A stretch of 64,000 bases of DNA from Selenomonadaceae bacterium (GTDB taxonomy: Bacteria; Bacillota; Negativicutes; Selenomonadales; Selenomonadaceae): positions 434,001 through 498,000 of the forward strand of contig JAUNIB010000001.1 in NCBI GenBank assembly GCA_030523645.1. Reading direction: 5' to 3'. This document shows positions 51,434 through 58,820 of the stretch, piece after piece; position 1 is the stretch's first letter; each line of letters opens with the position of its first letter. The notes under the pieces are model-generated. The model was given only the letters and a program-made list of their open reading frames with translations. It was not told where the DNA came from and did not search any database. Both the position numbers and the translations under genes were made by a program.

Positions 51434-51524
51434 AACAGCAGGCTGATACTGCGGGGTTTCAGCCGAACTGTTTTATGCACGGATCCTTATGTGAGACTGG
51501 CAAATAAAGGGTTATTTATAACCC
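51434..51524 (+). promoter_or_regulatory. Structured 5' leader of the CoA-transferase gene
   Basis: Two hairpins are visible. The larger pairs AACAG/CTGTT and GGCTGA/TCAGCC (51434-51438 and 51441-51446 with 51459-51464 and 51468-51472). The second is GGGTTA-ttta-TAACCC (51509-51524), ending eight bases before the AGGGAGG ribosome site. It does not match a cobalamin riboswitch. Function unknown: stability or translation control. Confidence 0.4.
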
Positions 51525-51545
51525 GAAATGAGGGAGGATTTCTAA

Positions 51546-53051
51546 ATGATTGATATCACTGATCGCGTACTTAACGCTGAACTGCGCGGCAAGATCACCA
51601 CTGCTGAAGAAGCAGCTCTGCACATCGGGCCGAACATGAACGTTGGTACGTCCGGATTCACCCCGTCCGGTTATCCGAAAGCAGTTCCTGTTGCTCTTGC
51701 TGAGCGCATGAAGAAGGAGCCTTTCAAGATTAACCTCTGGACTGGTGCTTCCGTAGGCCCCGAGCTCGACGAAGTTCTGGCCAACGTTGACGGTGTTAAC
51801 TTCCGCATGCCCTATCAGACCAATAGCGCAATGCGTAACGCCATCAATGCAAACAAAGTTCAGTATCAGGATCTCCATCTTAGCGAAGTTGGTCAGCTGA
51901 CCCGTACTGGCATGATCAACGGTGGCACCCTTGATGTTGCTATCGTTGAGGCTTGCATGATCACCAAGGAAGGTTATATCGTTCCGACTACTTCTCTTGG
52001 TAACAGCGCAACTTATGTAAAGCAGGCTAAGAAGGTTATCGTTGAAGTCAACACTTCCCAGCCGGTAGAGTTCTTCGGTATGCATGACGTTATCGTGCCG
52101 GAGGATCCCCCGTATCGTATGCCCTTTAACGTAGTAGCTTCCGATACCCGCATCGGTAAGCCGTACATCGAGTGCCCGCTCGACAAGATTGTTGCTGTTG
52201 TTCCGTGCGATGTTCCGGATAACACTCGTCCTCTCGGCGCAATCGATGATGATTCCAAGGCTATGTCCAAGCACCTGCTCGACTTCCTCGATGCTGAAAT
52301 CGCTGCTGGCCGTATGCCGAAGAATCTCCTTCCGCTCCAGTCCGGTGTTGGCAGCGTAGCTAACGCTGTTATCGGCGGATTTGTTGATTCCGACAAAGAG
52401 CACCTCACTGTTTACACTGAGGTTATCCAGGATGGTATGTTCGACCTTATCGATGCCGGTAAGCTCGACTTCGCTTCCGGTACTGCTCTCAGCCCGTCCC
52501 CGGAAGGACAGAAGAAACTCTATGGCAACTTCAATTTCTATGCTCCGAAGCTCTTGCTCCGTCCGCAGGAAATCTCCAACAGCCCGGAAGTTGTCCGTCG
52601 TATCGGCGTTATTGCCATGAATACGGCAATTGAGTGCGATATCTATGGTAACGTTAACTCCACCCGTATCAACGGTTCTCGCCTGATGAACGGTATCGGC
52701 GGTTCTGGTGACTTCGCTCGCAGCGGTTACCTCTCCGTATTCTTCACCGTCACCAGTGCAAAGAAGGGTGCCGTTTCCTCCATCGTTCCGATGGTTTCCC
52801 ATCAGGATCATGGCGCACAGGATGTCGACCTCATCGTCACCGAGCGCGGCGTCGCGGATCTCCGCGGCAAGTCCGCAAAACAGCGTGCCCAGGCAATCAT
52901 TGCAATTTCCAGCCCGGAATATCAGGCTCAGTTGCAGGATTACTTCGATCGCGCTTGCGCAGCTACCAAAAATGCCGACAAGCCGCATCTCCTCGCAGAA
53001 GCGCTTAGCTGGCATGTTAATGCCCTAGAAAAAGGTACCATGAAAAAATAA
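51546..53051 (+). CDS. Acetyl-CoA hydrolase/transferase family CoA-transferase (probable propionyl-CoA:succinate CoA-transferase)
   Basis: The 501-residue class I CoA-transferase belongs to the group of AarC, Cat1 and ScpC. The active-site glutamate is Glu292 in VYTEVIQDG. The glycine-rich oxyanion/CoA segment is NGIGGSGDFARSGYLSVFFT near residue 385. As the first gene of a cluster that makes propionyl-CoA from succinyl-CoA, it most likely moves CoA from propionyl-CoA to succinate, closing the cycle without ATP. Acetate as CoA acceptor or donor cannot be excluded from sequence. The AGGGAGG site and strong use of C-ending codons point to high expression. It lies 18 bases before the mutase gene. 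Confidence 0.88.
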   Translation: MIDITDRVLNAELRGKITTAEEAALHIGPNMNVGTSGFTPSGYPKAVPVALAERMKKEPFKINLWTGASVGPELDEVLANVDGVNFRMPYQTNSAMRNAINANKVQYQDLHLSEVGQLTRTGMINGGTLDVAIVEACMITKEGYIVPTTSLGNSATYVKQAKKVIVEVNTSQPVEFFGMHDVIVPEDPPYRMPFNVVASDTRIGKPYIECPLDKIVAVVPCDVPDNTRPLGAIDDDSKAMSKHLLDFLDAEIAAGRMPKNLLPLQSGVGSVANAVIGGFVDSDKEHLTVYTEVIQDGMFDLIDAGKLDFASGTALSPSPEGQKKLYGNFNFYAPKLLLRPQEISNSPEVVRRIGVIAMNTAIECDIYGNVNSTRINGSRLMNGIGGSGDFARSGYLSVFFTVTSAKKGAVSSIVPMVSHQDHGAQDVDLIVTERGVADLRGKSAKQRAQAIIAISSPEYQAQLQDYFDRACAATKNADKPHLLAEALSWHVNALEKGTMKK

Positions 53052-53069
53052 TAGGAGGGTACAAAAATT

Positions 53070-54713
53070 ATGAGCAATGAACAAATTAAAGCTGGTTTGG
53101 ATGCCTACACCGCACAGGTAGAGAAGGCCATCGCAAAGTTCCCCGAGCGTGCCAACGTTCCGGCACAGCGTATCTACACCCCGCTGGATTGCGAGGGTGA
53201 CTACTGCGAGAAGAGCGGTTTCCCTGGAAACTACCCCTTCACCCGTGGTGTACAGCCGACCATGTATCGTGGCCGTTTCTGGACCATGCGTATGTACGCT
53301 GGTTTCTCCACCGCTGATGAGTCCAACAAGCGTTATCGCATGCTGATTGAGAACGGTGCTACTGGTCTTTCCTGCGCATTCGATCTCCCGACCCAGATCG
53401 GTTATGACTCTGATGATCCGATTTCCGAAGGTGAAGTTGGTAAAGTCGGTGTTGCTATCGACTCCCTCGCTGATATGGAAATCCTCTTCGATCAGATCGA
53501 CCTCGGCAAGGTTTCCACCTCCATGACTATCAACGCTCCGGCTTCCGTACTGCTCTGCATGTACATCGCCGTTGCTAAGAAGCAGGGTGTTCCTTCCACC
53601 GCTCTGATGGGTACCATTCAGAACGATATCCTCAAAGAGTACGCTGCTCGCGGCACCTACATTTTCCCGCCGCGTCCGTCCATGCGTCTCATCACCAACA
53701 TTTTTGAGTATTGCTCTCAGAATGTTCCGAAATGGAATACCATCTCCATTTCCGGTTACCATATCCGTGAGGCTGGTTCCACCGCTTCTCAGGAAATCGC
53801 ATTCACCATTGCTGATGGTATCGCTTACGTAGATGCAGCTATCAAGGCTGGTCTCGATGTCGATGCTTTCGCTGGCCGTCTTTCCTTCTTCTGGAACGCT
53901 CACAACAACGTTCTCGAGGAAGTTGCAAAGTTCCGTGCTTCCCGTCGCGTATGGTCCAAGGTCATGAAGGAGCGTTTCGGCGCTAAGAAGGACAAGAGCA
54001 TGATGCTCCGCGTTCACACTCAGACCGCTGGTTCCATGCTGACCGCTCAGCAGCCGAACAACAACATCGTTCGCGTTGGTCTCCAGACCGCTGCTGCTGT
54101 AATGGGTGGCACCCAGTCCCTCCACACCAACTCCAAGGATGAGGCTCTCGCTCTGCCGACCACCGAGTCCGTTACCATCGCTCTCCGCACCCAGCAGATC
54201 GTTGCTTACGAGTCCGGTCTCGCTGATGTTATCGATCCGCTCGCTGGCTCCTACTATGTAGAGGCTATGACCGATCGCATCGAGAAGGAAGCTTGGGAGT
54301 ACATCAAGAAGATTGATGAGCTCGGCGGTGCTGTTGCTGCTATCGAGAAGGGCTACATCCAGAAGGAAATCCAGGATTCCGCTTACAAGTGGCAGATGGA
54401 TGTTGAGTCCGGTGCTCGCGTAATCGTTGGTGTTAACAAGTTCCAGATGGAAGAAGAGCCGCCTAAGGGCCTGCTCAAGGTTGATGCTTCCGTTGGTATC
54501 AAGCAGTCCGAGAAGCTCCGCGCTATGAAGGCTAAGCGTGACAACGCTGCTGTTCAGGCTGCCCTTGCTGATCTCGAGAAGGCTTGCGCTGATGAGAATG
54601 TTAACCTCATGCCGGTTATCCTCGCTGCTGTTGAGACCTACGCTACCCTCGGTGAAATCTGCGGCGTAATGCGTAAAGTCTTCGGCGAGTACGAGGCTCA
54701 TGTTAATCTGTAA
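53070..54713 (+). CDS. Methylmalonyl-CoA mutase, substrate-binding (large) subunit
   Basis: The 547-residue TIM-barrel subunit converts succinyl-CoA to (R)-methylmalonyl-CoA together with a separate B12 subunit. Residues that define methylmalonyl- over isobutyryl-CoA mutase are kept: Tyr76 in [16 protein letters not shown] and Arg in [15 protein letters not shown]. The substrate histidine lies in [12 protein letters not shown]. The usual RQYAGF is RMYAGF here, a small change. The C-terminal part (residues about 480-547) lacks the cobalamin domain, which is the next gene. In many bacteria both are one chain of about 700 residues. AGGAGGG precedes the ATG. Strong C-ending codon bias suggests very high expression. 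Confidence 0.95.
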
Positions 54714-54739
54714 TTTGTGAGATTTGGAGGGAATTTCAA

Positions 54740-55126
54740 ATGGCAGTAAGAGTATTGGTTGCAAAACCGGGTTTGGATGGTCATGATCGCGGTGCTAAGG
54801 TTGTTGCCCGTGCACTCCGCGATGCTGGCTTCGAAGTAGTATACACTGGTCTCCGTCAGACCCCGGAGCAGATCGCTGAAGCTGCTCTGCAGGAAGACGT
54901 TCAGGTTGTTGCAATGAGCATCCTCTCCGGTGCTCATCCGCACCTCTTCCCGAAGGTTGTTGAGCTTGTTCGTGGCAAGGGCCTCAAGGATGCTCTCATC
55001 ATCGGCGGCGGCGTTATTCCTGATGGCGATATCCCGGCTCTCAAAGAGGCTGGCATCGCTGCAGTATTCACTCCGGGTACCCCGACTGGTGACATCATTA
55101 AGTTCATCAACGAGAACGTAAAATAA
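54740..55126 (+). CDS. Methylmalonyl-CoA mutase, cobalamin-binding (small) subunit
   Basis: The 128-residue Rossmann-like B12 domain contains the base-off/His-on motif [16 protein letters not shown] (Asp-x-His-x-x-Gly), SILSGAH for the nucleotide loop, and GGGVIPDGD near the C-terminus. It carries adenosylcobalamin for the large subunit encoded 26 bases upstream. GGAGGGAA precedes the ATG. The pair forms a split enzyme, as in archaea and some anaerobes. A hairpin follows before meaB. Confidence 0.95.
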
Positions 55127-55156
55127 TTTACTCTTAAGGTATATGTATTAATGACT

Positions 55157-55196
55157 TTGCCCTCTTTGAATTTAATATTCAGAGAGGGCAAGGTTT
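55157..55196 (+). terminator. Hairpin with short T-run between the mutase and meaB
   Basis: TTGCCCTCT (55157-55165) pairs with AGAGGGCAA (55183-55191), followed by GGTTTTA. A partial terminator or processing site that would lower expression of meaB relative to the mutase. Confidence 0.55.
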
Positions 55197-55222
55197 TATA
55201 CTGCCAAAAGGTGGTGCAAAAC

Positions 55223-56164
55223 ATGGAGGACATTGCGAAAGAGCTTCTTGCTGGTAACCGTCTGGCGCTCTCCCGTACGATTACTGCAATCGAGGAAGAG
55301 TTTGAGAATGCCACTGCGATTATGCAGCAGCTTTATCCGCATACTGGCCATGCATACGTGCTTGGTATCACCGGCCCTCCGGGCGCCGGCAAAAGTACCT
55401 TAACCGATAAGATCGCTAAGACTTTCCGTAACATGGGAAAGACTGTTGGTATTGTCGCTATCGACCCCAGCAGCCCCTTTACTGGCGGTGCGATTCTTGG
55501 TGACCGTATTCGTATGAATAGCCTTACTCTTGATGAAGGTGTATTCATTCGTTCTATGGGTACCCGTGGCAGCCTCGGCGGCTTGTCACATAAGACAGCT
55601 GATGCTGTAAAAGCCCTAGATGCGTTCGGGATTGATGTAATCATTGTCGAGACGGTAGGCGTCGGTCAGTCCGAAGTTGATATCGTTAAGGCAGCTGACA
55701 CGACTGCGGTCGTTCTGATCCCTGGCATGGGTGATGATATTCAGGCTATCAAGGCCGGTATCCTTGAGATTGGTGATATTTTCACCATTAACAAGGCTGA
55801 CCATGATGGTGCTGATAAATTGGCTACTGAGCTTAATATGATGCTTGATCTTGATGGCGTAATGAAGGATTGGCGCCCGCCAATCATGAAGTGCGTTGGC
55901 AATCAGAATATCGGTGTAAAAGAACTTGTTGACAAGTTTGAGGAGCACCGTGCTCATATTGAAGCTAACGGAGAATTGGCCAAGCGGCGTACTGAACGTG
56001 TCAAGAACGAGTTGCTTGATCTGCTCAGCAGCCGTATCGAGTCCTATATCCGTGGCAAAATCGTTGACAATGGTAAGATCGATACCATGGTCGAGGATAT
56101 TAAAGCCCGTACTACGGATCCGTATACTGTTGCAGCAGATATTATGCAAAGTATGCTTAAATAA
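55223..56164 (+). CDS. meaB: MeaB/ArgK-type GTPase, chaperone of methylmalonyl-CoA mutase
   Basis: The 313-residue G3E-family GTPase protects and reloads the mutase cobalamin. Walker A is GITGPPGAGKSTLTDKI, switch regions include DPSSPFTGGAILGDRIRM and IVETVGVGQSEVD, and the G4 motif is NKAD. A C-terminal helical dimerisation arm closes it. The true start is probably ATG 55223, with AAAGGTGG eight bases upstream. The frame extends to ATG 55151 but that region holds the hairpin and would add 24 unconserved residues. It sits between mutase and epimerase, the normal place for it. Confidence 0.93.
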   Translation: MEDIAKELLAGNRLALSRTITAIEEEFENATAIMQQLYPHTGHAYVLGITGPPGAGKSTLTDKIAKTFRNMGKTVGIVAIDPSSPFTGGAILGDRIRMNSLTLDEGVFIRSMGTRGSLGGLSHKTADAVKALDAFGIDVIIVETVGVGQSEVDIVKAADTTAVVLIPGMGDDIQAIKAGILEIGDIFTINKADHDGADKLATELNMMLDLDGVMKDWRPPIMKCVGNQNIGVKELVDKFEEHRAHIEANGELAKRRTERVKNELLDLLSSRIESYIRGKIVDNGKIDTMVEDIKARTTDPYTVAADIMQSMLK

Positions 56165-56193
56165 AACTCATATTATCTGTAGGAGGTTTTATC

Positions 56194-56631
56194 ATGTCCA
56201 AATTCAAAGTTCTCGGTGTAGATCATCTTGGTATCGCTTGCGGCGATCTCGAAACCGGCAGCAAGTTCTGGAGCGAAATGCTCGGCGTTGCTAAAGCTGG
56301 TGAGGAGTCCGTTGCTTCTCAGAAGGTTACCACTGTATTCCACCCGATGTGGAATGGTTCCCAGGCTGAGCTCCTCGTTCCCCTGAACGGCGATCCTGAG
56401 AGCCCGATTGCTAAGTGGATGGCTTCCAACGGCGGCAAAGGCGGCATTCAGCATGTTGCTCTCCGCGTTGACAACCTCGCTGCTGCTATTGAGGAACTCA
56501 TGGCTAAAGGTGTAGCAATGATCGACAAGGCCCCCCGTCGTGGTGCTGGCGGCGCTGACATTGCTTTCATGCACCCGAAATCCACTGGCGGCATCCTCCT
56601 CGAGCTCTGCCAGCTCCGGGATGAGGAATAA
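56194..56631 (+). CDS. mce: Methylmalonyl-CoA epimerase
   Basis: The 145-residue vicinal-oxygen-chelate protein interconverts (R)- and (S)-methylmalonyl-CoA. The paired beta-alpha-beta halves are visible: VDHLGIACGDLETGSKFWSEMLG with the first metal His, and QHVALRVDNLAAAIEELMAKG with the second. The C-terminal glutamate in ILLELCQL completes the metal set. The length is typical. AGGAGG precedes the ATG. It supplies the S-isomer to the decarboxylase encoded next. Confidence 0.94.
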   Translation: MSKFKVLGVDHLGIACGDLETGSKFWSEMLGVAKAGEESVASQKVTTVFHPMWNGSQAELLVPLNGDPESPIAKWMASNGGKGGIQHVALRVDNLAAAIEELMAKGVAMIDKAPRRGAGGADIAFMHPKSTGGILLELCQLRDEE

Positions 56632-56639
56632 TTTTTTTT
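56594..56639 (+). terminator. Possible terminator overlapping the end of mce
   Basis: A composite stem (GAGCT/AGCTC with outer TCCTC/GAGGA) within the last codons is followed by eight T at 56632-56639. A weak promoter-like TTGCAA-N17-CAAAAT follows, so the decarboxylase genes may form their own unit. Confidence 0.4.
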
Positions 56640-56723
56640 CAAAAGTACTTGCAATTTTTTGAGTTTTCATGCAAAATAGTACCGGAGATAATTAATTAAA
56701 TTAATCCTATTAGGAGGCATAAA

Positions 56724-58253
56724 ATGGCTACTGTTCAGGAAAAAATCAAATTGATGAAGGCCAAGAAAGAGCACTTCATGCAGGGTGGCGGTCAGAAACA
56801 GATCGACAAACAGCATCAGAAGGGCAAGCTCACTGCTCGTGAGCGCTTGGATCTCCTCTTCGATGAGGGTACCTTCGTTGAACTCGATCTCCTCGTTAAG
56901 CATCGTTGCGTAAACTTCGGCCAGGACAAGAAAGAGAACCCGGGCGAAGGTGTAACCGTTGGTTACGGTACTGTAGACGGACGTCTCGTTTACGCTTTTG
57001 CTCAGGATTTCACCGTTGAAGGTGGTTCCCTCGGCGAGATGCACGCTAAGAAGATCTGGAAAGTCCAGGATCTCTCCATGAAGATGGGTGCTCCCTGCGT
57101 TGGTCTCAACGACTCCGGCGGTGCTCGTATTCAGGAAGCTTGCGATGCTCTCTGCGGCTATGGCGGAATCTTCTTCCGTAATACTGCTGCTTCCGGCGTT
57201 GTTCCCCAGATTTCTGCAATCATGGGCCCCTCCGCTGGCGGCGCTGTTTACTCCCCGGCTATCACCGACTTCATCTACATGGTCAAGAACACCTCTCAGA
57301 TGTTCATCACTGGCCCGGCTGTAGTTGAGTCTGTTACCGGTGAGAAGATCACTGCTGAGGCTCTCGGCGGTGCTATGACCCATAACTCCAAGTCCGGCTG
57401 CGCTCATTTCGCTGCTGAGAATGATGAAGACTGCATTAAGCAGATTCGTTATCTCCTCAGCTTCCTGCCCAGCAACAACATGGAAGAGACTCCGATTGTT
57501 GACTGCGCTGATGATCCGCTCCGTATGGACGAGGCTCTCAACACCATCATTCCGGATAATCCGAATGCTCCGTATGACATGAAGGAAGTTATCCGCATGA
57601 TTGCTGATAACGGTGAGTTCTATGAAGTTCATCAGTACTTCGCTACCAACATCATTACCGGTTTTGCTCGTTTCGATGGCCGCACTGTAGGTATCATCGC
57701 TAATCAGCCGAAGGTAATGGCTGGCTGCCTTGACTGCGATGCTTCCGATAAGTCCTCCCGCTTCATCCGCTTCTGCGATGCTTTCAACATTCCTTTGCTG
57801 AACATGGTTGACGTTCCGGGCTTCCTCCCCGGCCGTGGCCAGGAGCACATGGGCATCATCCGTCATGGTGCTAAGATGCTCTATGCTTACAGTGAAGCTA
57901 CTGTTCCTAAGATTACCCTCATCATCCGTAAGTCCTACGGTGGTTCCTACATCGCTATGTGCTCCCGCGAAGTCGGCGCTGACCAGGTTATCGCTTGGCC
58001 GTCCTCCGAAATCGCTGTTATGGGACCTGCCGGTGCAGCTAACATCATCTTCCGTAAGGATCCGGATCGTGAGCAGCGCACTGCTGAGTACGTTGAGGAG
58101 TTCGCTACCCCGTACAAGGCTGCAGAGCGCGGCTATGTTGACTATGTCATCGAGCCGAAGGAAACCCGTCCTCGCATTATCCAGTCCCTCAACATGCTTG
58201 CTACCAAGCGTGAAGTCGGCCCGGCTAAGAAGCACGGCAACATTCCTTTGTAA
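56724..58253 (+). CDS. mmdA: Methylmalonyl-CoA decarboxylase alpha subunit (carboxyltransferase)
   Basis: The 509-residue carboxyltransferase subunit moves the carboxyl group of (S)-methylmalonyl-CoA to biotin on MmdC. It has two crotonase-like halves. The first includes GKLTARERLDLLFDEGTFVE and the acyl-CoA site SGGARIQEA with GPSAGGAVYSPA. The second contains NIITGFARFDGRTVGIIANQP, DVPGFLPGRGQEHMGIIRHGAKMLYAY and GGSYIAMCSREVGADQ, where the biotin site lies. AGGAGG precedes the ATG. In sodium-pumping decarboxylases a membrane beta subunit then releases CO2. No such gene follows here. The same fold occurs in propionyl-CoA carboxylase beta, but no biotin carboxylase gene is present. Confidence 0.93.
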   Translation: MATVQEKIKLMKAKKEHFMQGGGQKQIDKQHQKGKLTARERLDLLFDEGTFVELDLLVKHRCVNFGQDKKENPGEGVTVGYGTVDGRLVYAFAQDFTVEGGSLGEMHAKKIWKVQDLSMKMGAPCVGLNDSGGARIQEACDALCGYGGIFFRNTAASGVVPQISAIMGPSAGGAVYSPAITDFIYMVKNTSQMFITGPAVVESVTGEKITAEALGGAMTHNSKSGCAHFAAENDEDCIKQIRYLLSFLPSNNMEETPIVDCADDPLRMDEALNTIIPDNPNAPYDMKEVIRMIADNGEFYEVHQYFATNIITGFARFDGRTVGIIANQPKVMAGCLDCDASDKSSRFIRFCDAFNIPLLNMVDVPGFLPGRGQEHMGIIRHGAKMLYAYSEATVPKITLIIRKSYGGSYIAMCSREVGADQVIAWPSSEIAVMGPAGAANIIFRKDPDREQRTAEYVEEFATPYKAAERGYVDYVIEPKETRPRIIQSLNMLATKREVGPAKKHGNIPL

Positions 58254-58268
58254 TCGGAGGTTCTCAAG

Positions 58269-58406
58269 GTGGGAACGACCAGCGTAACACCTGAAACGGT
58301 TGCTGTTATTACAGCAGCTGTTCAGCAGATGTATGGTAAAAATTACATCGCTGTACGCGTACAGCCCAATAATATGTGGACGATTGCTTCCAGACTCCGC
58401 CTTTAA
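58269..58406 (+). CDS. mmdE: Small MmdE-like (epsilon) subunit, 45 residues
   Basis: A short frame between mmdA and mmdC with GTG start at 58269 and GGAGG eight bases upstream. The product begins VGTTSVTPETVAVITAAVQQ and ends MWTIASRLRL, that is an amphipathic helix, a short strand and a Trp-x-x-x-x-Arg tail. This resembles the small subunits and delta-subunit C-termini of biotin-dependent decarboxylases, and the position matches mmdE (55 residues) in the Veillonella mmdA-mmdE-mmdD-mmdC-mmdB cluster, as I recall it. It probably stabilises the complex. The frame is below the length cut-off of most gene finders. The stop codon is in a hairpin. Confidence 0.7.
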   Translation: MGTTSVTPETVAVITAAVQQMYGKNYIAVRVQPNNMWTIASRLRL

Positions 58407-58422: not shown

Positions 58423-58460
58423 GGCGTTCAAATATAAATGATGTTTTGGAGGAATCTCAA

Positions 58461-58820
58461 GTGAAAAAATTTAACATTACCGTAAACGGTCAGGCTTATG
58501 AAGTTGAAGTTGAAGAAGTAGGCGGCGCTGCTGCTGCTCCGCGTGCTGCTGCACCGAAGGCTGCTCCGGCTCCGGCCGCTGCTCCGGCTGCTGCTGCTGC
58601 TGCTGGTGAGACTGCTATCGCAGCTCCGATGCCGGGCAAGGTTCTCAAGGTTAACGTTACTGTTGGCCAGGCTGTTAACGCTGGCGACAATCTCCTCATC
58701 CTCGAGGCTATGAAGATGCAGAACGAGATTCTCGCTGATGTTGGCGGTACTGTAAAGGCTATCAACGCTCAGGTTGGTGCCAATGTACAGGCTGGCGACA
58801 CCCTCGTTATCATCGGCTAA
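58461..58820 (+). CDS. mmdC: Methylmalonyl-CoA decarboxylase gamma subunit (biotin carrier)
   Basis: The 120-residue biotin carrier has a short N-terminal strand region (KKFNITVNGQAYEVEVEEVGG), an Ala/Pro-rich flexible linker (about residues 25-50) and a biotinyl domain with the biotinylated lysine in LEAMKMQNE. GTG start at 58461 with GGAGG eight bases upstream. An in-frame ATG at 58446 overlaps that site and is rejected. It receives the carboxyl group from MmdA and in pumping enzymes hands it to MmdB. The cluster ends with a strong terminator immediately after it. Confidence 0.94.
   Translation: MKKFNITVNGQAYEVEVEEVGGAAAAPRAAAPKAAPAPAAAPAAAAAAGETAIAAPMPGKVLKVNVTVGQAVNAGDNLLILEAMKMQNEILADVGGTVKAINAQVGANVQAGDTLVIIG

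Follow-up and report, generated by a model that had tools for sequence, protein, structure and literature searches.

Between the carboxyltransferase gene mmdA and the biotin carrier gene mmdC, the window (the whole 64,000-nucleotide stretch of Selenomonadaceae DNA analyzed here) contains a short open reading frame (ORF) that is almost certainly a real gene. Judged from its sequence, the encoded protein is soluble and homologous to the C-terminal domain of MmdD/OadG, without a transmembrane helix or an Ala/Pro linker. It is very likely a subunit of the MmdA/MmdC complex, and the explanation that best covers the data as a whole, namely a soluble structural subunit of a biotin-dependent methylmalonyl-CoA carboxyltransferase core, can be regarded as probable. 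A first-pass annotation had described the ORF as an MmdE-like microprotein of 45 residues with a GTG start and a strong ribosome site; the frame lies exactly so, with the motif GGAGGT 7 nt upstream of the start codon (Table 1).

Table 1. Genes and ribosome binding sites in and around the mmd cluster, with positions counted from the first nucleotide of the window.
Feature	Position	Strand	Remarks
CoA-transferase, acetyl-CoA hydrolase/transferase family	51546-53051	+	PF02550, PF13336
Methylmalonyl-CoA mutase catalytic subunit	53070-54713	+	PF01642
B12-binding subunit, probably of methylmalonyl-CoA mutase	54740-55126	+	PF02310
MeaB-type GTPase of methylmalonyl-CoA mutase	55151-56164	+	PF03308
Glyoxalase-family protein	56194-56631	+	PF13669
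mmdA, carboxyltransferase subunit	56724-58253	+	509 aa; TIGR01117, PF01039
Ribosome binding site GGAGGT of the mmdE-like gene	58256-58261	+	Read directly in the sequence
mmdE-like gene	58269-58406	+	45 aa, GTG start; soluble homolog of the MmdD/OadG C-terminal domain
Ribosome binding site GGAGG of mmdC	58448-58452	+	Read directly in the sequence
mmdC, biotin carrier subunit	58461-58820	+	119 aa

The genes upstream of the mmdE-like ORF and the mmd genes together form a succinate-to-propionate cluster, in which the glyoxalase-family protein is probably the methylmalonyl-CoA epimerase, a name taken from its place in the cluster. MmdA scores 902.1 bits against TIGR01117 (mmdA), under the cut-off of 998.8. 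For mmdC, the GTG at 58461 was used as the start instead of the TTG at 58446 given in the ORF listing; the resulting protein begins with a hairpin (KKFNITVNGQAYEVEVEEV, residues ~2-20), followed by an Ala/Pro linker and a biotinyl domain (AMKM). The coding sequences of mmdA, the mmdE-like gene, and mmdC all lie in one frame and are parted only by single TAA codons. Opposite the genes of the cluster, antisense ORFs of 499, 579, and 522 aa are present (51516-58235, minus strand), which are probably a by-product of codon use. The cluster position claimed for the small ORF was right as far as the slot between mmdA and mmdC is concerned; however, the order here is A-E-C and not the canonical A-D-E-C, and mmdD and mmdB lie together on another contig of the same genome. 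Their products are the sole OAD_gamma and OAD_beta matches at E 0.001 in a search of that genome, and the MmdD (118 aa) comprises, judged by eye, a membrane segment, an Ala/Pro linker, and a C-terminal domain.

When the 207-nt gap between mmdA and mmdC was resampled with a Markov model, 576 of 5000 resamples contained an ORF of this length, which is therefore within reach of chance; thus, the evidence for a gene is its conservation and not its length. GTDB genomes were scanned with MmdA, and the best 80 of 349 relatives (Selenomonadales by their titles) were kept. After ORFs of at least 30 aa had been listed in the gaps, presence was scored by a sequence pattern. This pattern missed the window ORF itself, which was placed directly from the sequence and the ORF list, and the eight pattern-negative loci were inspected in three frames, with L004, L012, and L013 as comparison. 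Conservation of the frame in relatives, which had been singled out as a check on the annotation, was found at 72 of the 80 loci, where a homologous ORF (40-51 aa by the start rule used) lies between mmdA and mmdC; the remaining eight, all close MmdA relatives, lack the gene. A chance ORF, or a spacer serving translational coupling without any protein function, is refuted by the conservation of the protein over these 72 loci, 20 of 30 further genomes, and two loci of another family, and the probability left to such a reading is negligible.

In an alignment of 73 proteins (window included), five residues are invariant, W37 among them, and seven more are conserved in at least 90%. The C-terminal Trp/Arg motif noted in the first pass is borne out for the Trp (73/73), whereas R42 reaches at least 90% in a diverse set of 31 members and stays under 90% in the set of 73, in which Lys is frequent instead. 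When the relatives were compared with the window, pN fell short of pS each time (72/72), with pS mostly close to saturation (median 0.72). The same held for each of 514 moderately diverged pairs, which are not independent of one another (median ratio 0.365). This substitution pattern indicates purifying selection on the mmdE-like ORF. By a simple rule, a ribosome site precedes 65 of the 72 chosen starts, and none was found by that rule in L004, L015, L016, L019, L042, L053, and L073; some of these seven misses are due to the rule itself, which chose an internal start or rejects GGGGG-like sites.

The gene is also found more widely. In a first family census, 129 of 151 genomes gave a match, 117 of them at E 1.4e-9 or better; the other 12 have a weak best hit (E 2.7e-5 to 1.7e-3) that is probably the MmdD tail, leaving 34 of the 151 genomes without a strong match. 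One of the loci that carry the small gene, L077, is titled Quinella sp. A search of the phylum matched 42 genomes outside the family, and two loci of another family (L238 and L239) were read, in which the gene for a soluble tail protein (73-76 aa) stands directly between those for MmdA and a biotin carrier. At both, the last four bases of the tail gene, stop codon included, are also the first four of the carrier gene. Most of the other matched loci outside the family have open frames of >100 aa, which may be MmdD.

At the eight loci without the mmdE-like gene (L005-L011 and L014), ~110 nt of other DNA occupy the slot. A whole-genome search of these eight genomes, for which completeness is not given, found no second copy at E <0.1 (best E 0.155). 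OAD_gamma matches exceed the cut-off in seven of them, and the eighth has weaker pieces in two frames. With the gene absent and MmdD present, the small protein is dispensable in these eight genomes. The eight loci and the window fall into one group of 11 (100/100 in the tree), and the absences require at least two changes on this tree; on our reading of the drawn tree, three separate losses took place if the gene was never regained. In a test for remnants, the gaps of L005, L008, and L009 keep a short stretch similar to the codons at and near the conserved Trp, equaled by 0-7 of 400 shuffles, a weak hint of a Trp-codon remnant, and the other five loci gave mixed or chance-like results.

Such losses, all within the window's own group of 11, raise the question of whether the window copy is a relic, or is decaying and will follow the copies already gone from sister lineages. 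The divergence of the copy points in the same direction: it is 33-53% identical to the other aligned family members and has Gln (Q32) in place of the nearly invariant K32, which is conserved in at least 90% of the 73 proteins. Decay is nevertheless very improbable, as the frame is intact, the ribosome site is present, the invariant residues are kept, and pN/pS is 0.37 and 0.51 against the two nearest relatives, L004 and L012, although pS is near saturation in these comparisons.

The identity of the protein was addressed with profile comparisons. With hhalign, the small-protein profile matched the C-termini of 30 MmdD proteins with a probability of 97.1 and an E-value of 5.7e-11 over 42 columns, with the Trp and the following Arg in register; the alignment to MmdD C-termini that had been recommended as a check is thus positive. 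Like the C-terminal domain of MmdD, OadG, and GcdD (PF04277), the window protein combines a helix, a strand, and Trp-x4-Arg. Unlike these proteins, it has neither the transmembrane helix nor the Ala/Pro linker, and its 45 residues include no long hydrophobic stretch (by eye). Against the PF04277 OAD_gamma profile it scores 16.2 bits, with a cut-off of 27, and covers profile positions 59-74 of 76 only. Family profiles searched against solved structures retrieved no relevant chain.

Against the NCBIfam MmdE model (NF047904), the window protein scores 21.1 bits (E 2.1e-4) over nearly the full length, with a curated cut-off of 65. This model matches 18 of the 73 relatives at E ≤0.1, and the best match is the window's own, as it is among 31 diverse members; because this best score lies far under 65 bits, the window type would not be named by the NCBI model. 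When the whole genome was searched with NF047904, the organism's own MmdD scored 24.6 bits vs. 20.9 for the mmdE-like ORF.

In the Veillonella-type enzyme, the epsilon subunit MmdE stabilizes the sodium pump. Among the papers searched, none names both MmdA and MmdE as whole words. Among 200 genomes of the class searched with NF047904, 28 exceeded the cut-off, all of them from one family (f25), which we take to be Veillonellaceae. The ten canonical loci read from these genomes all have the order A-D-E-C. Nine of their MmdE proteins comprise 55-58 residues, and one has 82 if its longest frame is taken; four of them (L224 and L227-L229) have exactly 55 residues, so the earlier remark that the window protein is even smaller than the 55-residue Veillonella subunit was correct. 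All ten score 50-55 bits against the MmdD profile vs. 9-22 bits against the window-type profile. In a tree of 76 tails built from 50 columns, 32 window-type proteins make up one side of a branch with 97/99 support, and seven canonical MmdE proteins fall together with the seven MmdD proteins of their family on another branch (98/86). An AU test on the 50 columns did not reject canonical MmdE and the window type as one clade (p 0.446). Two separate origins of the canonical and the window type are favored by these comparisons, not proven.

If the window protein were nonetheless an ortholog of Veillonella MmdE, i.e., a stabilizing extra subunit of the Na+-translocating methylmalonyl-CoA decarboxylase, the weak but nearly full-length match to the MmdE model and the presence of MmdB and MmdD elsewhere in the same genome would be explained, and the AU test would allow the single clade. 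This identity is unlikely in view of the score under the 65-bit cut-off, the much closer fit of canonical MmdE to MmdD than to the window type, the two separate branches (though on 50 columns only), the different gene order, and the existence of relatives in seven genomes in which no pump subunit was detected. With canonical MmdE, the window protein shares its small size, its solubility, its location in an mmd cluster, its homology to the MmdD tail, and the Trp/Arg motif; it differs in length, in its sub-cut-off score, in the A-E-C order, and in having a branch of its own. The description as an MmdE-like microprotein therefore holds for a small mmd subunit with a nearly full-length model match, a profile match to the MmdD tail, a conserved slot, and a conserved frame, but it does not clearly extend to identity with MmdE, given the sub-cut-off score, the higher score of the genome's own MmdD, and the tree that parts the two types, the AU result notwithstanding. 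The window protein is a distinct soluble variant, close to what had been claimed.

In another difference from canonical MmdE, relatives of the window type are also present in genomes in which no pump subunit was detected. In 30 further genomes with mmdA, the position immediately downstream of mmdA is occupied by the soluble type in 20, by a membrane-anchored protein in six, and by neither in three, and it is cut off in one (L179), with the anchor judged by eye or by a match to MmdD. Neither type was found at L152 and L173, whose genomes encode OAD_gamma elsewhere, and at L177, whose genome has no OAD_gamma. Ten of 60 genomes have no OAD_beta match at E 0.001. Seven of these ten (G010, G014, G022, G042, G045, G046, and G048; 91-100% complete) are pump-less and have the soluble type after mmdA, together with mmdC; they yield no OAD_gamma match either, save the soluble protein itself in G022. 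The other three are G039, with an anchored variant of 158 aa; G054 (87% complete), with neither type; and G001 (83% complete), whose mmdA was not among the loci examined. On account of the seven pump-less genomes, the window-type subunit probably serves the soluble MmdA-MmdC core as an adaptor and is not just a pump stabilizer.

Several other layouts of MmdD-related proteins were observed. Tail proteins that are soluble but carry an N-terminal extension beginning MGFF... are encoded at L158:3054-3374 (plus strand) and L176:1214-1465 (minus strand), the extension possibly being a peripheral membrane anchor, and the protein at L178:3043-3516 has a different, transmembrane-like start. In addition, microproteins of 45-56 aa that correspond to the transmembrane half of MmdD only, the mirror image of the soluble tail protein, are encoded directly before full-length mmdD, for example at L145:1468-1608 (plus strand) and also at L099, L104, L110, L124, L134, L137, L143, and L165; the genomes concerned include Schwartzia succinivorans.

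In the mechanism proposed here, the small protein would bind the MmdA-MmdC core and hold the biotin carrier near MmdA. Its Ala-rich helix (residues ~8-22) and strand (~27-33) may make up a BT/PT-like domain jointly with the conserved beta hairpin at the N-terminus of MmdC, a complementation that is plausible but falls slightly short of probable. Several published precedents exist. The C-terminal tail of OadG is needed for binding OadA, and a PT-like model has been proposed (PMC7274780). In the two-subunit pyruvate carboxylase, the BT-like domain combines an Ala-rich helix of one subunit with beta sheets of two others, the sheet corresponding to residues 470-512 in the numbering of the paper, which is assumed to match that of 5ks8_C (PMC5059739). 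AccE was proposed to supply a missing BT/PT helix (PMC3199775), and in a model of the glutaconyl-CoA enzyme, the tail of GcdD, a stretch of GcdA, and the N-terminus of GcdC take part in the linker from the head to the membrane part (PMC7145394). On the side of MmdC, the hairpin KKFN[IV][TS]VNG..Y.VEVEE is present in 71 of 73 rows, in which the start could be placed (two starts were not placed), and residues 4-116 align to residues 497-612 of the two-subunit pyruvate carboxylase chain (5ks8_C). From the precedents, the hairpin, and this alignment, we infer that the helix and strand of the small protein pair with the MmdC hairpin. By hypothesis, the result would resemble the BT-like domain of the two-subunit pyruvate carboxylase and the BT domain of propionyl-CoA carboxylase, with an Ala-rich helix and strands from separate chains; MmdC aligns to the linker region, and the small protein has no relevant sequence match to a solved structure. 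When the first 26 residues of MmdC were searched by themselves, no carboxylase and no relevant solved structure came up.

For the small protein, AlphaFold predicts helices at residues 8-22 and 35-43 and a strand at 27-33; for MmdC, it predicts an N-terminal hairpin. The models support the secondary structure only. Complexes were folded as read-through polypeptides, since the genes share one frame and are parted by single TAA codons, a modeling device that implies no read-through in the cell. In the MmdE-MmdC model, the pLDDT of the block was 47-71 for the small protein and 41-54 for the MmdC hairpin, and the MmdA-MmdE-MmdC model was poor, with a mean pLDDT of 54.1 and a pTM of 0.48. In both models, confidence at the interfaces was too low to show a contact of the small protein with MmdC or MmdA. 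The 50 matches listed in a fold search were biotinyl domains or larger biotin enzymes containing one.

AccE (PF13822), which is likewise a small additional component of a biotin carboxylase complex, invites comparison with the window protein, and its proposed role as a helix donor would suit a counterpart by descent of this actinobacterial acyl-CoA carboxylase epsilon subunit (PMC3199775). At E ≤1, a comparison with Pfam ACC_epsilon picked up five of the 73 family members, the best at 0.055. This is not a significant relation, the window protein itself gives no match to PF13822, and a similar role needs no common descent; shared ancestry with AccE is accordingly improbable.

With respect to the pump, MmdD would present this domain attached to MmdB, for use in Na+ pumping, whereas the small protein would offer it untethered, so that the core could be stable or work without the pump. 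The untethered core possibly works with the genome's standalone carboxyltransferase-type protein, a PYC_OADA protein of ~510 aa (contig C13, L216:1417-2946, minus strand). This 5S-like pyruvate/oxaloacetate carboxyltransferase has no biotin domain of its own and would need a shared carrier, e.g., MmdC. The enzyme to compare is methylmalonyl-CoA:pyruvate transcarboxylase: among PDB chains, MmdA finds its 12S subunit and MmdC its 1.3S subunit, and the genome has a gene for a standalone 5S-like protein. That enzyme is, however, not known to have a small MmdE-like subunit. A PYC_OADA domain search of 16 genomes revealed a standalone protein of ~450 aa in G042, G045, G046, and G048 and a pyruvate-carboxylase-sized protein in G010, and it found no such protein in G014 and G022. 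Since two of the seven pump-less genomes thus lack PYC_OADA and one has a protein the size of pyruvate carboxylase, a transcarboxylase cannot be the general answer, and use of the subunit in a transcarboxylase is possible but doubtful. For Quinella, a hybrid enzyme in which the core works with a carboxyltransferase of the oxaloacetate type has been suggested (PMC9585023).

Two lineages may go under the name MmdE, a picture that we put forward tentatively and without confidence that it is right in full. The Veillonella subunit would be a late copy of the MmdD tail, and the window type would be an older, soluble subunit of the MmdA-MmdC core that provides a BT/PT-like domain in trans. The core would plug either into the Na+ pump, via MmdD/MmdB, or into soluble carboxyl transfer, and the older type would persist where the pump is missing. 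That pump-less genomes encode a soluble counterpart points to a more basic role, namely docking the biotin carrier to the carboxyltransferase, and the job of the window type is likely more general than stabilizing a pump. Systems of three soluble proteins offer a small and simple setting in which to test this docking role. The finding also bears on how propionate producers of the rumen and gut may use a single core for both energy-conserving decarboxylation and carboxyl transfer.
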